Positions 5,043 to 11,522 of a DNA stretch of 37,739 bases are shown here, in pieces (the first letter of the stretch is position 1; each line of letters starts with the position of its first letter). A program made the translations under genes and the position numbers. Under the pieces are notes generated by a model, which saw nothing but the letters and a program-made list of their open reading frames with translations, was not told where the DNA came from and did not search any database. Source of the stretch: a virus; IMG/VR virus record IMGVR_UViG_3300048918_000580, positions 1 through 37,739 of that record; one strand, 5' to 3'.

Positions 5043-7754
5043 TCACTCCCCCGAGCCCCGCTTCTTACGCGCCGGCGTCGCCGGCGATTCGTTCGGCCCA
5101 CGCTGGAACACCCAGCACTTGACCGTGCGGCCACGGCTTTCGTCGGTGTTGTCGTGCAGCCAGATGCTGCTGTTCACCGCCTTCACGTCGACGAACTTCC
5201 GCGAGCGTGAGCTGCGCAGGTACTTTTTCAGGTCGGCCAGCGGCGGCACGTCCAGGCGGTGAGTAGCCGCCACTTCCTCGAAGTGGTTGAGGTTGACGGC
5301 GATCTCGCCCGGGTTACGGCTGTGGTTGAGCGACGACGCGGCCGCATTCCAGGTGTCCAGGTAGTCGAACCGCTCCCAGAAGATCTGCACGACCTTGTGG
5401 TCGCTGCTAATGGCCTCCTGGCGCTCGATCGCCATGGACTGCACTTCTCGCGCTACGGCGTCGCGCTGCTCATCGGTGAAGCTCACCACCTGGCCAAGCG
5501 CCGCGAACACGGCCAGCAGCTGGCCATGGTTCTTCGCGATACGGGTGGTTTTCACCTCCGGGTGTTCAAGGATGGCCTGCTCGTACTCGCCGGCCTTGGT
5601 CAGGATGGTCTCCATCACCTTGGCTTCGGCGCGCGTGGCCAACAGCAGGAAGTGACTGAGCTGGTCCACCGGCATCTGCTCAAGCTTCAACGCCGCGGCG
5701 CGGGTCTGTGACGTATGCGCCGAACGGTCGACGGTGATGTGGCAGATGCGCTGCATGATCGCTTCGCTTGCCTCCACCTTCGCGTTCTGCGAAATCACGA
5801 CCGTGGCGCGGAAAGGCGGCTCGCGCGTCTCGTTGCCGGAGTTCTTCACGCCGACGGCGCGCACGCTGCGGCCGTTGTAGGCGGTCTTGAGCTCGTCCCA
5901 GTCAAAACGCTTCTTGGCATCGTCGTCGCGATCGCTTTCGATCAGCACGACGGGCAGGTTGGACACCTGGGCAAAATTGCGGGCGCGGGCGGCCAGCGTT
6001 GCCTTGGATGGGTCGAAGCCCTCGTAGTCGCGGCGGCCGAAAAGCTTCCACATGAACTCGATCAGCGTGGATTTGCCGGCGCCGGCCTCGCCGACCAGCT
6101 CAAGGAACGGATAGCTCTTTTGCACATGGCGGATCTGCTCGGCGAACAAGCTGCCGAACCAGAACGACAGGGCGACCAGGCCTTTGGCGCCGAAGCACTG
6201 CCACACCAGGTCGAGCCAGTCGGCCCGGTACTCGCTGCGGTCGCGGTTAATGGTGAGCTGCGGCGAGGCGGTCAGCGTTTTCAGGTTGAGCCGGCCCAGC
6301 TCGAAGTAATCCTCGTCGTTGAGCGCATGCACCACGCCGTCCTTGATGGCGATATCGCCCATCACGTAGGCCGCGTGCTCTTTGCTGTAGCCGATGTAAT
6401 CGATCGTATCGACAGTTTTGATGTTGAACAGCTGCCGCTGGATGATGCGATCGAGCTGCTGGCTGGTACCGGTGAACACCGCACCTGGTGCGATGCTGAG
6501 CAGGCGCTTCTTGAACTCGCTGGCACTGGCCAGGCTGCCACCCGCAAAGGTGTTCTTCACCGACCCGCCGTTATGCGGGAAGCTGATGCGGTAGTAGTAC
6601 CAGGACTCATCCGTGACGGCGTTTGCCTGGTAGTACAGGGGTTGCGGGTTGCAATTGGCGATCTCGATGTTGTCGCACGACTCGGCAAGGGCCTGCTTGC
6701 GGCGCTCGCCTTCGTCCTGGTCGGGATCCTTTTCTTGAAGCTGCTGGGCGGCCTTGTCGTAGGCCTTGATGTCCAGGTCGAACCAGTAAAGGCGATCGCC
6801 GAAGTCGTAGAAGAACGTCGCCATGCTGGTCCGGTTGTAGATCAGCAGCGCCTTTTCCTGGTGATTGCGCGCGATCAACAGGGAGCCTTCGTAGCGGCAG
6901 TCCTCGATGTCGCGGGTGCCGAGCTTGTCGGCGAGGTGCAGATCGTTCCAGTCCTGCTTGCCCTTGGTCGTCTGCTTGACCGTGGCGGCTTCGCACTTCC
7001 AGGCGTCCTTTTGGCCACGCTTCACCCAGCGCTGCGTGTAGTCGCGGCCTGCAGCATCGCCATCGAGCGCCCACACCAGCAACGGGAGATCCTTGCCGCG
7101 TGCGAGTGCAAGGCGACGCAGGAAGTCGCCCGGGTAGTTGTTGCACGTCATGGCTGACACGGCGGTGATGCCGTGATGGCCCAGCGCGATCGCGTCGAAG
7201 ATGCCCTCGACGATCCACAGTTCGGTGCATTTGGCCAGCACTTCGCCCGTCACAGTCGGCGGCACCCACACTTCGCCGGCGTAGCTTTTGCCCGGCGCAA
7301 ACCGCGCCTTCATCTTGCCGAAGCGATGCGGCCGATCGATCAGGCGCTCCCAGTAGCCACCACCCGGCAGCGGGAAGCGCACCGTGGCCGTCGTCGCCTG
7401 GCTCTCCGGATCCTTGAACCACTCCTGCGTGTAAGCGTTCTGCACGCGGCTGAGGTTGAAGCCGCGCGAGTTCTTGAGGTACGCGTCGGCCGCGGCGTGC
7501 GGGTTGGCCTCGGTCTTTTTGAAACGCTCGGACCAGTCCTCGAACAGGTCGGGGAACAGATCCTTGACCGATGCCTCGAAGCCGCAGTTTTTCAGGCGGC
7601 CGCAGCGCACTACCCACGGCGCGCTCGCCTTGGCGTAGAGCTCGGGCTTGCCGCACTGCGGGCACTTGCCACCGCGCAGGAAATCCTTCCGCGGCTTGCA
7701 GCCGTAGCGGTCGGTCAGCTCGCGGGTGATGTCGTGGAGAAGTTCCGGCGTCAT
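5043..7754 (-). CDS. TOPRIM primase with P-loop helicase-like ATPase
   Basis: The phage replication protein, 903 residues. The N-terminus has a zinc-binding module (CPQC at residues 31-34 with further Cys about 22 and 28 residues on), as in DnaG-type primases. A TOPRIM domain follows at about 175-240 (WIVEG with the catalytic Glu, then DGDAAG with the paired Asp). Near residues 553-562 is a clear Walker A motif (GEAGAGKST), followed by an ATPase region with VVLIESDRDD as Walker B. It should prime and unwind DNA at the phage origin, like P4 alpha or P2-satellite primases. The ATG at 7754 forms an ATGA overlap with the upstream gene. Confidence 0.93.
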   Translation of the reverse strand: MTPELLHDITRELTDRYGCKPRKDFLRGGKCPQCGKPELYAKASAPWVVRCGRLKNCGFEASVKDLFPDLFEDWSERFKKTEANPHAAADAYLKNSRGFNLSRVQNAYTQEWFKDPESQATTATVRFPLPGGGYWERLIDRPHRFGKMKARFAPGKSYAGEVWVPPTVTGEVLAKCTELWIVEGIFDAIALGHHGITAVSAMTCNNYPGDFLRRLALARGKDLPLLVWALDGDAAGRDYTQRWVKRGQKDAWKCEAATVKQTTKGKQDWNDLHLADKLGTRDIEDCRYEGSLLIARNHQEKALLIYNRTSMATFFYDFGDRLYWFDLDIKAYDKAAQQLQEKDPDQDEGERRKQALAESCDNIEIANCNPQPLYYQANAVTDESWYYYRISFPHNGGSVKNTFAGGSLASASEFKKRLLSIAPGAVFTGTSQQLDRIIQRQLFNIKTVDTIDYIGYSKEHAAYVMGDIAIKDGVVHALNDEDYFELGRLNLKTLTASPQLTINRDRSEYRADWLDLVWQCFGAKGLVALSFWFGSLFAEQIRHVQKSYPFLELVGEAGAGKSTLIEFMWKLFGRRDYEGFDPSKATLAARARNFAQVSNLPVVLIESDRDDDAKKRFDWDELKTAYNGRSVRAVGVKNSGNETREPPFRATVVISQNAKVEASEAIMQRICHITVDRSAHTSQTRAAALKLEQMPVDQLSHFLLLATRAEAKVMETILTKAGEYEQAILEHPEVKTTRIAKNHGQLLAVFAALGQVVSFTDEQRDAVAREVQSMAIERQEAISSDHKVVQIFWERFDYLDTWNAAASSLNHSRNPGEIAVNLNHFEEVAATHRLDVPPLADLKKYLRSSRSRKFVDVKAVNSSIWLHDNTDESRGRTVKCWVFQRGPNESPATPARKKRGSGE

Positions 7755-8017
7755 GCCTGGTCGCCTTCGATGGGCGTCCACATCGCGCCGCGCGGACCGC
7801 AAGTGGCGCCCATGCGGCGCATCCGGTCGCAGTCAGTTCCCAGATACGTGCCGCCGCGTTCGTCGATAGCGCGCCTGTCATCGATGAACACGTCCATTTC
7901 CTCGACGGTGGCCGGCACCGGGCCGCATTCGGGCGGCAGGGTGCAAAGGAGAAAGCGCGCACCCGGAAGACGCGTATGAAACGCGCAGGTGGAGCAGGTG
8001 GGATAGGCGATGCTCAT
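7751..8017 (-). CDS. Cys-containing hypothetical early protein
   Basis: An 88-residue protein starting MSIAYPTCSTCAFH. The six Cys (C8, C11, C25, C31, C63, C73 approximately) with a leading CxxC suggest a bound metal or Fe-S cluster. Both ends are ATGA overlaps: with the primase start downstream and with the previous gene stop upstream, so it is translationally coupled to the primase. No family is recognised; a primase accessory role is possible from position only. Confidence 0.75.
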   Translation of the reverse strand: MSIAYPTCSTCAFHTRLPGARFLLCTLPPECGPVPATVEEMDVFIDDRRAIDERGGTYLGTDCDRMRRMGATCGPRGAMWTPIEGDQA

Positions 8018-8271
8018 GCCGCCACCCCGCGCACCGGCATGCCGAGCACATCGGCCACCCACTTGAGGTGGGCGAACGCGAGCGGGAAGTGAGCGCCGCC
8101 AACGGCGAGGCACGGCGTGCCGGCAGCCAACACGCACACCTGGTCGCGCGGAGCACTGGCCACGGCGACGTGCATGCCGCGCAGCGTGATCGCCGCGGTG
8201 ACGTAGCCGGTCGTGCTGTTAACGACGACCAGGTCGAGGCCGATGTCCTCGCGCAGGGGCAGCGTGCTCAC
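8014..8271 (-). CDS. hypothetical early protein
   Basis: An 85-residue protein with beta-rich pattern and no charged coil. It starts with GTG at 8271; the codon overlaps the TGA of the preceding gene as GTGA, which is the reason for this start. Its stop overlaps the next ATG. The function is unknown. Confidence 0.7.
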   Translation of the reverse strand: MSTLPLREDIGLDLVVVNSTTGYVTAAITLRGMHVAVASAPRDQVCVLAAGTPCLAVGGAHFPLAFAHLKWVADVLGMPVRGVAA

Positions 8272-8528
8272 GCCACACCGCCCTTACCGGTGACGGCGAT
8301 GTCGAGCTGGGAAATAGCGCGGTCGAGCCTATCGAATACGCTATTGAGCAGCTCGTAGACCTCGTCGGGGCCGACCATCTGCGCGTGCAGGCCTGCCGTG
8401 ATGCAGGCGTTGGCGGCGAAGAGAGCGACTTTCGCGGAGCGCAGTTCGTTGAGGCTCGACGCGATGTTGTTCTGGCGTTGGCTCTGGGCGCGCAGGTGTG
8501 CGCGTGCGACACGGTGACGTGCAGTCAT
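8268..8528 (-). CDS. first gene of early operon, C4-controlled hypothetical
   Basis: An 86-residue, largely helical protein (RVARAHLRAQSQRQNN then SLNELRSAKVALFAANA). The ATG at 8528 has an AGGA Shine-Dalgarno sequence at 8537-8540, and this site lies inside the 10-base segment complementary to the loop of the putative antisense RNA. The protein is therefore the probable direct translational target, and through the chain of overlapping genes so is the rest of the replication operon. The frame stays open upstream to 8852, but that stretch is the structured leader. Position is analogous to the first genes under P4 CI or P1 C4 control; function unknown. Confidence 0.75.
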   Translation of the reverse strand: MTARHRVARAHLRAQSQRQNNIASSLNELRSAKVALFAANACITAGLHAQMVGPDEVYELLNSVFDRLDRAISQLDIAVTGKGGVA

Positions 8529-8535
8529 GGGGCAA

Positions 8536-8580
8536 TTCCTAAGTCGGGTTATGCCCGACACCCCAACGCCAATTAGGGTG
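8536..8580 (-). promoter_or_regulatory. downstream antisense target over the RBS
   Basis: On the minus-strand RNA, TTGGCGT (8566-8572) sits in the loop of a CACCC/GGGTG hairpin (8559-8563 with 8576-8580). It is followed by a perfect 6-bp hairpin (8543-8548 with 8554-8559) and then GACTTAGGAA (8536-8545), which includes the AGGA ribosome binding site for the ATG at 8528. Both heptamer and decamer are exact complements of the two single-stranded parts of the putative C4 RNA. This is the layout of the b'/a' targets in P1 C4. Confidence 0.75.
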
Positions 8581-8589
8581 ACGGACGAC

Positions 8590-8645
8590 GCAAGGTTGGC
8601 GTACCGGGGACTTAGGAACCCGGCAGGCCCGAAGGCCTCCCTGCG
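8590..8645 (-). ncRNA. C4/CI-like antisense immunity RNA
   Basis: On the minus strand a UUCG-tetraloop hairpin (AGGCC/GGCCT, 8625-8629 with 8634-8638) is followed by a second hairpin with stem CCGGG/CCCGG (8604-8608 with 8619-8623). Its 10-base loop, TTCCTAAGTC, is the exact complement of the RBS segment 8536-8545 and of most of 8739-8747. After it comes unpaired ACGCCAA (8596-8602), complementary to TTGGCGT on both sides. Two hairpins and two short pairing regions between two target copies is the hallmark of the P4 CI and P1 C4 antisense RNAs. Ends are approximate; such RNAs are processed from the leader, in known cases by RNase P. Confidence 0.8.
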
Positions 8646-8738
8646 CCGCCCGCCATAGAGCGAACTGCGCTGCGTGCAAGCGTACGCCGAAGCCAGACGA
8701 AAAAAATGCGCCTGCATCGGTCGATGGGCGCTTGCGCG

Positions 8739-8764
8739 CCTAAGTCCATTGATCGGGACGCCAA
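8739..8764 (-). promoter_or_regulatory. upstream antisense target copy
   Basis: In the minus-strand transcript this precedes the antisense RNA. It carries TTGGCGT (8758-8764) in the loop of a GGGA/TCCC hairpin, and GGACTTAGG (8739-8747). These are the same two target words found over the RBS at 8536-8572, in the same order, so the antisense RNA could pair with either copy. In P4 the equivalent elements are seqA and seqC around seqB. Confidence 0.7.
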
Positions 8765-8796
8765 TCCCGGTCGCCGATTTGGCGGCGACGGCCGAA

Positions 8797-8825
8797 GCAT
8801 CCCTCCGGTGTGGGGCGAGTGTCAA
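8797..8825 (-). promoter_or_regulatory. candidate promoter for early leader
   Basis: A perfect TTGACA (-35, 8820-8825) with a poor -10 (GGATGC, 8797-8802) at 17 bp spacing. Transcription would start near 8790, just before the first target element. The -35 is convincing, the -10 is not, so the start is uncertain. Confidence 0.4.
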
Positions 8826-8933
8826 CGGTTGTTCGCGCTTTTTCGTGGTCATAAGGCAAGCCGTATCCGTTCCGGCCGTCGCAGGGACAGCCGGTCAAGG
8901 TGAGAACGAGGGTCGAGCGCTACGGCGCGGGTG

Positions 8934-9711: not shown

Positions 9712-9942
9712 TTACTTAGGCTCAAGGCCGCCCACGGGCGGCCTTGCTGTTGCATGCGCCGCCTGACCTTCGAGGTAGACGGCCAGCACGTAGCCCGCAA
9801 CGGTGGTTTTCTTGTGCCCGGCACAACGGACCGCCTCAGCGTGCTGCGCAGGGGACAAGGAAATGCCGACACGGACACCCTTGCCAGGGTTTCTTGGCGC
9901 ATAGGACCGACGGCTGCGGCCACAGACAGGAGAGTTATTCAT
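9712..9942 (-). CDS. small basic protein, possible ribbon-helix-helix
   Basis: A 76-residue, Arg-rich protein and the first leftward gene opposite the repressor. The middle (GKGVRVGISLSPAQHAEAV followed by two short helices) resembles a ribbon-helix-helix DNA-binding fold, as in Cro/Arc-like regulators, but similarity is weak. The only ATG is at 9942; no clear Shine-Dalgarno precedes it, so the start is uncertain. By position it could be the Cro or Cox equivalent of this phage. Confidence 0.55.
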   Translation of the reverse strand: MNNSPVCGRSRRSYAPRNPGKGVRVGISLSPAQHAEAVRCAGHKKTTVAGYVLAVYLEGQAAHATARPPVGGLEPK

Positions 9943-9980
9943 GGCTATGGGTTACGATGCCGAAGTGTCACACAAAACGA

Positions 9981-10009
9981 ATGCTATCCCACGTATTGTG
10001 GGATTACAA
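9981..10009 (-). promoter_or_regulatory. leftward early promoter
   Basis: A -35 TTGTAA (10004-10009) and a -10 TAGCAT (9981-9986), each 4 of 6 matches, are separated by exactly 17 bp. The spacer is filled by the first operator palindrome, so repressor binding would block polymerase. Transcription would begin near 9974 and run into the 9942 gene, ogr and the next gene. Confidence 0.6.
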
Positions 10010-10024
10010 CCCACAGACAGTGGG
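9986..10024. promoter_or_regulatory. twin repressor operators
   Basis: Operator 1 is ATCCCAC-GTATT-GTGGGAT (9986-10004, perfect 7-bp arms). Operator 2 is CCCAC-AGACA-GTGGG (10010-10024). Their centres are 22 bp apart, about two helical turns, on one face of the helix. They lie in the divergent region between the leftward early gene and the CI-like repressor start, so they are the probable binding sites of that repressor. The inner half-sites also form a GTGGG-N7-CCCAC palindrome. Confidence 0.75.
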
Positions 10025-10048
10025 ATCATCTCAGTGCAGGGTAAAAGC

Positions 10049-10453
10049 ATGGAAGTGATCACCGACGACGTGGTGGATCGACTGCAAAAGGTGTTCGGCG
10101 TGACCACGGATGTCGCCCTCGCCTCGGCGCTCGGACTCTCGAAGAATGCGCCGGGCAACTGGCGCAAGCGCAGCGCACCGCCTTACGAAATCTGCGCTCA
10201 GGTGGCCGCGGCGCACAGCGTCTCGCCGACCTGGTTGCTCTTCGGCGTCGGCAGCCAAGATTTAGAGGCCTGCCGTGCAGCGGCGGCCCAGCCTGACCAC
10301 AAACTGACGCCACCGGCAGAAAGAATCACTCAATTTGTGGGCCAGTGGGACGCATCCCGTGCGGCTGATGAGGTCGTGTGGCTTGAGCAACAGCTCAAGC
10401 GTTCCGTTCCCGAATACGCCGACTGGCTGGTCGCGTCAGGAAACCGGATCTAA
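10049..10453 (+). CDS. CI-like phage repressor
   Basis: A 134-residue protein with the N-terminal helix-turn-helix domain of the phage CI repressor family (Phage_CI_repr): DDVVDRLQKVFGVTTDVALA, then LGLSKNAPGNWRKR as recognition region, then PYEICAQVAAAHSVSPTWLLFG. The C-terminal part (about 80-134) is short and lacks the LexA-like Ser/Lys peptidase, so simple RecA-induced self-cleavage is unlikely. I start at 10049, with AGGG 7 bases upstream; the open frame begins at 9941, but that would put both operators inside the gene. It should maintain lysogeny by closing the leftward promoter. Confidence 0.85.
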   Translation: MEVITDDVVDRLQKVFGVTTDVALASALGLSKNAPGNWRKRSAPPYEICAQVAAAHSVSPTWLLFGVGSQDLEACRAAAAQPDHKLTPPAERITQFVGQWDASRAADEVVWLEQQLKRSVPEYADWLVASGNRI

Positions 10454-10525: not shown

Positions 10526-10589
10526 CAACACACCCGCCACGCCTCTGCAGCTGTTCATTGCTGTAAGCGCAAATAGGCGGGTTTTTTTT
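10526..10589 (+). ncRNA. short structured RNA upstream of Abi gene
   Basis: From the predicted start near 10526 to the T run at 10582-10589 the transcript would be about 64 bases. It can fold into an outer stem CCCGCC/GGCGGG (10533-10538 with 10576-10581) and an inner stem-loop TGCAGC/GCTGTA (10546-10551 with 10560-10565). A small RNA with its own promoter and terminator directly in front of an Abi_2 HEPN gene matches the known arrangement of AbiF loci, in which a noncoding RNA controls the toxin. The exact fold and ends are inferred. Confidence 0.6.
10533..10589 (+). terminator. terminator between small RNA and Abi gene
   Basis: CCCGCC (10533-10538) pairs with GGCGGG (10576-10581), followed by eight T. 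The loop is long but contains its own stem. It would end the small RNA and also the repressor transcript, and leave the Abi gene to read-through transcription. Confidence 0.65.
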
Positions 10590-10610: not shown

Positions 10611-11522
10611 ATGCGGTACACCAAGGGACCGTTGACCTACGCGGAGCAGCTGCAGCTGTTGCGCGACCGAGGCATGCAAATCGAAGATGCGCAGCGCGCC
10701 ATGCGCTACCTCGAACGAGTCGGCTATTACCGGCTCATGGGCTACTTTTTCCCGTTCCGCAAACCTGGCCTCGACGACTATATAGATGGAGCATCGTTTG
10801 AGCGCTCGGTGCAGCTTTATGAATTTGACCGTGGCCTCCGTGCCCTCGTGTTGGATGCCATTAGCCACGTCGAAGTAGCGGTGCGCACGTCGGTCACCTA
10901 CGAAATGGCCCACGCCTACGGCGCGTTTGGTCATTGTGATCCCGCGAACGTGGCATTCCAAAAAAACGACTGGCACGCCCGTTGGATTGATGACGTTCAT
11001 CAGGAAACGGAGCGGGCGCGGGAGACCTTCATTGATCACTATCGAAACAAGTACGACGACTTCCCCAAGCTGCCCATCTGGATGGCCACCGAGGTCATGT
11101 CGATAGGCACCGTGTCGAAGCTCGTGAAGGCAATGCATCCGGTGGATCAAAAGCGTATCGCCGATCGCTTTCAGCTACATGCCCCCGTCTTCAGCAGCTG
11201 GCTGCATACCATCGTCGTGGTTCGGAATATTTGTGCGCATCACGGGCGGTTCTGGAATCGCGTCTTTGGTGTGCAACCGGTTCGACCGCGCGCCGGCGAA
11301 TGGCAATACATGACCGATCAGCTTCCGAGCGATCGCTCGTTCTTCATGCTCCTAGTGCTGCGCAAGCTCTTGAGAAGCACAACCGAAGATGGCGAGGCAT
11401 GGCGTGACCAGGTCACCGCCCATCTGGTACCAATGCTTCAGGATCCAGGTCACCTTTTGTCGATGGGCGCGCCAAAGGATTGGGAGAACCATCCATTGTG
11501 GCGAGCCAAGCGCCGACCCTAA
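10611..11522 (+). CDS. Abi_2 family (AbiD/AbiF-like) HEPN abortive infection protein
   Basis: A 303-residue protein of the Abi_2 family. Typical segments are the N-terminal LTYAEQLQLLRDRGM and YLERVGYYRLMGYFFPF, the middle LYEFDRGLRALVLDAISHVEVAVRT (quoted in parts by helix), and the C-terminal HEPN RNase motif RNICAHH (Arg205, His210). HEPN nucleases of this class cut RNA and stop growth when a phage infects. The gene lies between the repressor and the tail gene D, and has its own promoter, so it should be expressed in the lysogen as defence cargo. GGGGAGGG precedes the ATG. Convergent with gpD. Confidence 0.9.
   Translation: MRYTKGPLTYAEQLQLLRDRGMQIEDAQRAMRYLERVGYYRLMGYFFPFRKPGLDDYIDGASFERSVQLYEFDRGLRALVLDAISHVEVAVRTSVTYEMAHAYGAFGHCDPANVAFQKNDWHARWIDDVHQETERARETFIDHYRNKYDDFPKLPIWMATEVMSIGTVSKLVKAMHPVDQKRIADRFQLHAPVFSSWLHTIVVVRNICAHHGRFWNRVFGVQPVRPRAGEWQYMTDQLPSDRSFFMLLVLRKLLRSTTEDGEAWRDQVTAHLVPMLQDPGHLLSMGAPKDWENHPLWRAKRRP

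Follow-up and report, generated by a model that had tools for sequence, protein, structure and literature searches.

The C4 RNA of phage P1 is processed from a longer transcript by RNase P, and in the satellite P4 the CI RNA stimulates a terminator lying between the CI promoter and the cI gene, in a manner that depends on CI and seqA. The P1 reference has the order a1, b1, C4, a2, b2, Shine-Dalgarno (SD) sequence and icd (73 aa), icd overlaps ant1 by 4 nt (ant1 1089 / icd 1092 in L345) and the record annotates a2 and b2 as the C4 targets, with the remark 'repression of icd ant translation'. The P4 reference has a 65-aa kil with its ATG at +55 and a 9-nt b2 over the kil SD, and the kil frame is open to ATGs giving 199, 198 and 197 aa. 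C4 and c4-a1b1 have been described as RNAs of Proteobacteria and phages (Weinberg et al. 2010, PMC2864571, in excerpt). PMC5320573 ascribes specificity to a' and describes ribosome-binding sites as occluded in part by the b' loop, and PMC4825925 has CI acting via seqA and seqC. For P4, PMC10111431 describes a promoter internal to eta and Kil as a truncated form of Eta; the full-length protein comes solely from the upstream late promoter, and translation of eta prevents termination.

The DNA analysed here is a 37.7-kb IMG/VR virus record, taken whole (37,739 nt, hereafter the window). Late genes for tape measure, sheath, baseplate, major head protein, scaffold/protease and terminase are present, and the primase belongs to family phrog_1139, with relatives that include Stenotrophomonas phage Smp131 (Peduoviridae) and Pseudomonas phage Dobby. 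Judged by this late-gene set and primase family, the window is a P2-like temperate myovirus. The protein genes discussed below are as follows.

5043-7754, minus strand: DNA primase, 903 aa (phrog_1139, 1155 bits; Toprim_2)
7751-8017, minus strand: gene C, ATG start at 8017, 4-nt overlap (ATGA) with gene B
8014-8271, minus strand: gene B, GTG start at 8271, 4-nt overlap (GTGA) with gene A
8268-8528, minus strand: gene A, 86 aa, start ATG 8528, first gene after C4 and in the kil/icd position
9941-10453, plus strand: CI-type repressor ORF, divergent from the leftward operon (PF07022, 5.9e-10, residues 43-104)

The primase ATG at 7754 in turn shares an ATGA with gene C. The leftward chain A-B-C-primase thus contains three 4-nt overlaps, and the initial annotation was right that the genes overlap by 4 bases down to the primase. 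Gene A had no match in Pfam or PHROGs, and when it was used as bait in viral contigs 36 stretches fitted the pattern, none of which was confirmed as a relative. Genes B and C were likewise without a family match, and no antirepressor of the kind that marks P1/P7 immI was found among these genes. Inverted repeats CCCAC...GTGGG, seen by eye at 9980-10030, lie between the leftward operon and the HTH part of the repressor. They are likely operators, in which case the real repressor start is perhaps near ATG 10050. Adjoining the repressor is an abortive-infection RNA-protein pair carried in the phage, namely an abiF RNA (10533-10582, plus strand, RF03085, 40.2 bits) directly 5' of an Abi_2 family gene (10611-11522, plus strand).

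Between gene A and the sequence upstream lies an antisense RNA with its target words.

8574-8660, minus strand: C4 antisense RNA (Rfam RF01695, 85.3 bits, E 1.3e-15)
8609-8618, minus strand: b' loop TTCCTAAGTC, 10-nt complement of b2 and 9-nt complement of b1
8596-8602, minus strand: a' segment ACGCCAA, 7-nt complement of both a1 and a2
8566-8572, minus strand: a2 target word TTGGCGT, 7/7 complement of a'
8536-8545, minus strand: b2 target word GACTTAGGAA, overlapping the Shine-Dalgarno AGGA 8540-8537

The C4 score is well over the cut-off of 45, and the match spans model positions 1-87 with the three-stem fold. Alignment to the annotated ends of P1 C4 predicts mature ends at about 8654-8577; the GG with which P1 C4 is annotated to begin is conserved as part of ATGG. 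The Rfam matches to C4, c4-a1b1 and isrK are in the right order and on the right strand. All Watson-Crick runs of at least 6 between C4 and 8900-8450 were scanned. The longest were b' 8618-8609 with 8545-8536 (10 nt) and b' 8616-8608 with 8747-8739 (9 nt), and a' (8602-8596) paired over 7 nt with both 8572-8566 (a2) and 8764-8758 (a1). Thus the a2 and b2 words are repeated upstream as a1 and b1. The antisense decamer proposed initially is borne out, with 10/10 Watson-Crick pairs on the minus strand over 8545-8536, including AGGA 8540-8537, which stands 8 nt before the gene A ATG at 8528. The other proposal, that a second target word lies in a hairpin loop just upstream, holds in part. In a predicted hairpin (8585-8550, -18.6 kcal/mol) the GGCG of a2 forms the 4-nt apical loop but the flanking letters are paired. 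A second predicted hairpin (-10.2 kcal/mol) includes the first letters of b2 in its 3' arm, and the SD of gene A is partly paired in the predicted fold without C4. The exact C4 loops of the window were found in no viral contig. A search with the target words (16 fixed bases and a gap) returned at least 119 stretches, too many to mean anything, and was set aside.

Whether the b' loop covers an SD more often than expected was examined across C4 loci gathered from virus records, from 50 of 80 whole genomes reached by a primase profile and from a Pseudomonas phage record. A covariance model gave 47 matches over 53 sources and, after two with identical C4 sequence were dropped, 45 distinct loci; these are the best-scoring matches, include relatives and are not independent. 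P1 and P4 are both recovered by a covariance model that had neither in its training set. A start was counted as callable when a start codon 38-62 nt after C4 was accompanied by an SD-like word, and 39/45 loci had one. A run of at least 6 pairs between the locus' own b' and the SD window was seen at 32 of these 39, against 257/1709 (15%) when b' loops were swapped between loci. For runs of at least 8 the figures were 25/39 and 51/1709 (3.0%), and for runs of at least 10 they were 8/39 and 8/1709. At seven of the 39 loci b' did not reach a run of 6 over the SD, and six of the 45 lacked a callable start. Given that there are 42 different b' strings among the 45 loci, loops and targets change together, and on this basis immunity groups would be predictable from the sequence by itself. 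Since b' often carries a UUCCU core, it might mimic the anti-SD and match any SD by chance, and swapped loops do reach a run of 6 in 15% of pairings. However, the excess of own over swapped loops at runs of at least 8, together with covariation in the half of b2 that is not SD (below), already contradicts this explanation, which we regard as highly improbable. The initial claim of RBS occlusion by an antisense loop therefore gains from the own-versus-swapped pairing, the covariation, the Rfam C4 and a1b1 matches and the P1 record, and it is well supported that the C4 b' loop is placed to cover the RBS of gene A, an occlusion predicted from base pairing. C4-like RNAs can also be numerous: four bacterial genomes (G042, G058, G074 and G075) have 14-19 each, L131 has three within about 0.9 kb, and a Silanimonas MAG (L044/L138) has two identical copies about 1.26 kb apart, downstream of a primase.

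Covariation was examined in nine C4-bearing relatives (the window, L015/L031, L013/L032, L007/L033, L010/L036, L018/L035, L004/L037, L165 and L160), all with the same arrangement upstream of a related primase. Both a1 and a2 pair 7/7 in all nine. In a common register b1 pairs 8/8 in eight of the nine, and L035 has 8 pairs in a register of its own. Pairing of b2 extends over at least 9 letters in 6/9 relatives. In the other three (L033, L036 and L037, all of one loop type) two U-U mismatches interrupt b2, leaving 7/10 pairs, while b1, a1 and a2 are perfect; perfect pairing to the SD is thus not always kept. The pattern in these three resembles the outcome of a swap of C4 and b1 that left the RBS target in place. 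In the nine-sequence alignment 25 cells are changed on both sides and still keep the a'/a2 and b'/b2 pairs, compared with a mean of 8.3 after shuffling, and none of 500 shuffles reached 25. Overall 92.2% of cells are paired, falling to 32-50% when the partner is slid by 1-3 columns. The covariation sits in columns 232-236, the non-SD half of b2.

Upstream of C4 the second pair of target words is embedded in the following elements.

8796-8825, minus strand: candidate internal promoter, TTGACA 8825-8820, 18-nt spacer, GATGCT 8801-8796
8739-8802, minus strand: a1/b1 target region (RF03163 c4-a1b1, 48.7 bits, covering 8802-8750)
8701-8789, minus strand: isrK-like short RNA up to an intrinsic terminator (RF01394, 51.8 bits, marginal against a cut-off of 50)
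8727-8740, minus strand: candidate antiterminator hairpin GGCGC-GCAA-GCGCC, -9.2 kcal/mol, its first two G within b1
8700-8731, minus strand: intrinsic terminator, t1-like, GCGCC...GGCGC followed by T7, -12.7 kcal/mol

The GATGCT hexamer is poor (3/6 letters) and this promoter is absent from the output of the consensus scan. The spacing from ATG 8852 to TTGACA is 27 nt in 7/7 relatives examined by script, the window included, and TTGACA is also at that place in L165 and L160. The a1 word is at 8764-8758, and b1, at 8747-8739, is just outside the c4-a1b1 model. The middle GCGCC arm can pair with either neighbour, so that the 3' arm of the antiterminator is the 5' arm of the terminator. This sharing was sought in 51 loci, 40 of which have a b1 of at least 7 and 34 of those a terminator stem. 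Hairpins sharing at least 3 nt, the first starting no more than 4 nt from the 3' end of b1, were found in 27 of the 34. When the start window was shifted the count was 2, 0, 0 and 10 of 34, and the shifted window giving 10 adjoins a1, whose GGC may explain them. P1 passes with different letters (TGCGG/CCGCA) and P4 fails. This suggests, from the geometry of the hairpins, that C4 bound at b1 would remove the foot of the antiterminator and favour termination, i.e. that the leader is an antisense-controlled attenuator. Searches of open-licence full text showed no description of such a shared-arm design. A foot in b1 would be a testable explanation for the two kept target pairs and for early termination by C4 and, if true, the arm-sharing in 27/34 loci, P1 included, would make attenuation a general and so far unstated part of C4 control.

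Two other readings of the leader have to be weighed here. C4 might act mainly at the upstream target by attenuation, with the match to the RBS secondary or a relic. The arm-sharing at the foot of b1 points this way, as does a b1 intact over 8 pairs in 9/9 relatives (L035 in its own register) while b2 is interrupted in 3/9. However, b2 lies over the SD in 32/39 loci with their own loops and covaries, and the P1 record gives repression to a2/b2; we consider this reading rather unlikely. Alternatively, the wiring might resemble that of Gifsy-1, where, in an excerpt of PMC4825925, the short IsrK binds the read-through RNA and orf45 becomes translatable. The short a1/b1 RNA would then serve as activator or sponge, binding C4 sequences so that the RBS of the read-through transcript is freed. 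The isrK match over 8789-8701 and the presence of the same words in a1/b1 as in a2/b2 are consistent with such wiring, but the match is barely above its cut-off, the region also fits the C4 and a1b1 models and no gene annotated in the window is named as antQ- or anrP-like, which leaves it unlikely. A third arrangement, which we rate as somewhat less likely than not, is that one C4 loop would work two switches from the same word, a trans-acting attenuator at b1 and the cover of the SD at b2. A leader ORF kept open, with its amino acids free to vary, would let ribosomes on the transcript under protein-repressor control override both.

That leader ORF is the following.

8268-8852, minus strand: 194-aa open frame in phase with gene A, eta-like, spanning the promoter, a1, b1, the terminator and C4

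Because the GC content of the window gives many long chance ORFs, the other frames and the relatives served as the only yardsticks of openness. No stop interrupts the gene A frame in the 7/7 relatives examined by script (total lengths 182-198 aa), and the other two frames contain 0-6 stops, with at least two in 13/14. In L165 and L160 the gene A frame likewise runs open to an ATG at the corresponding position, making it open in 9/9 C4-bearing relatives. Applied to P4, this analysis recovers kil within its longer open frame. When chimeras were made of sites drawn at random from the seven relative sequences, which are not independent, 47% had no stop. It is therefore likely, though not certain, that openness of the frame is kept in close relatives. 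Values of pN/pS were 0.78 over C4/a2b2 and 0.71 in gene A. A leader peptide selected for its amino acids was considered and is unsupported, with pN/pS of 1.23, 1.19 and 1.04 in the leader segments. That a nested frame is general to C4 RNAs was also rejected; outside the clade the gene frame was open through C4 in 19/32 loci, against 14 and 15 for the other two frames.

Ribosomes on an upstream transcript could thus pass the block at the gene A RBS. Since gene A sequence is translatable from ATG 8852 through the same open frame, AGGA 8540-8537 is not safely the 'only RBS' of this gene, as had been supposed. The first ATG is also found in relatives that lack C4: at 11 of 19 C4-less primase loci, some of which are near-identical (e.g. 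L011 and L012), a conserved GGCTTGCC...ATG opens an ORF of at least 47 aa before the primase. The C4-less loci that keep the leader ATG upstream of the primase are L002, L003, L005, L006, L008, L009, L011, L012, L017, L020 and L163. These close relatives show that the C4 module can be lost or swapped. At the leader ATG these C4-less relatives begin a different small gene, often with a CxxC-type pattern. In L002 the leader start appears, by eye, to be fused in frame to the end of gene A, suggesting that the C4 module was deleted in frame.

How closure of one RBS might silence replication remains to be considered. Of the two routes put forward in the initial annotation, early termination is backed by the intrinsic terminator between b1 and C4, and strict translational coupling is the weaker. 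The calculated SD-like pairing is -8.7 kcal/mol for gene B, -6.3 for gene C, -4.3 for the primase and -4.2 for gene A. Each of the three downstream genes thus pairs at least as strongly as gene A, which weakens the case for strict coupling, although the 4-nt overlaps would allow it as far as the primase. A closed RBS is more likely to silence the primase through termination and the resulting loss of message. The start of gene A is C-rich and G-poor (from 8549, C about 40% and G about 24%), a composition that weakly suggests a Rho-loading region.

Given the observed parts, pairing, covariation and frame conservation, we regard it as very probable, taking the explanation as a whole, that an RNA immunity module of the P1-C4/P4-CI kind lies in the leader of the replication operon of this P2-like temperate phage. 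From these observations we infer promoter use, processing, repression, termination and bypass as follows. In the lysogen the CI-type repressor (9941-10453) would presumably shut the early promoter, so that the internal promoter (TTGACA 8825) alone fires. The short internal transcript would mostly end at the intrinsic terminator just after a1/b1, and RNA reading through would be processed to C4 RNA. C4 could then act, in cis or in trans, on later transcripts through a' and b'. Pairing with a1/b1 would favour the terminator, and pairing with a2/b2 would cover the SD of gene A. Without translation of gene A, Rho-type polarity, and perhaps lost coupling, would cause loss of the message before the primase. 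C4 would thus probably silence replication during dormancy, in a way similar to P1 and P4. In the lytic state transcripts from the upstream early promoter, which CI represses, would carry ribosomes from ATG 8852 across C4 in frame, allowing escape from the block. Such a module would place C4/CI-type RNA immunity over the replication operon of P2-like phages that also have a protein repressor.

Compared with the known systems, the window shares with P1/P7 immI the order of elements, a small first gene, a 4-nt overlap with the next gene, the C4 fold, a separate protein repressor and a shared-arm terminator after b1. It differs in that the frame of the P1 first gene is closed right after C4 whereas that of the window is open through C4, and in that the P1 operon makes an antirepressor whereas that of the window leads to the primase. 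Because its operon lacks an antirepressor, the window 'works like' immI but 'is' not immI. With Gifsy-1 IsrK/STnc1160 the likeness lies in a short terminated leader RNA followed by a stable RNA and then a small ORF; the downstream genes differ. With P4 immunity (CI RNA, seqA, seqC, kil/eta) the window shares an operon leading to a replication primase (in the window by position only), a nested in-frame ORF through the RNA (197-199 aa in P4 and 194 aa in the window), a small inner gene with its SD under b2 and an intrinsic terminator between b1 and the RNA. In contrast to P4, which is a satellite, the window is a phage and carries a CI-type repressor of its own; no family match was obtained for gene A in Pfam or PHROGs, and arm-sharing is seen in the window and not in P4. 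The block by C4 at the RBS of gene A would appear to be the documented mechanism of P1/P7 C4 and P4 CI, here in another P2-like phage, and the parts worth testing are the P4-like nested frame and the attenuator reading.
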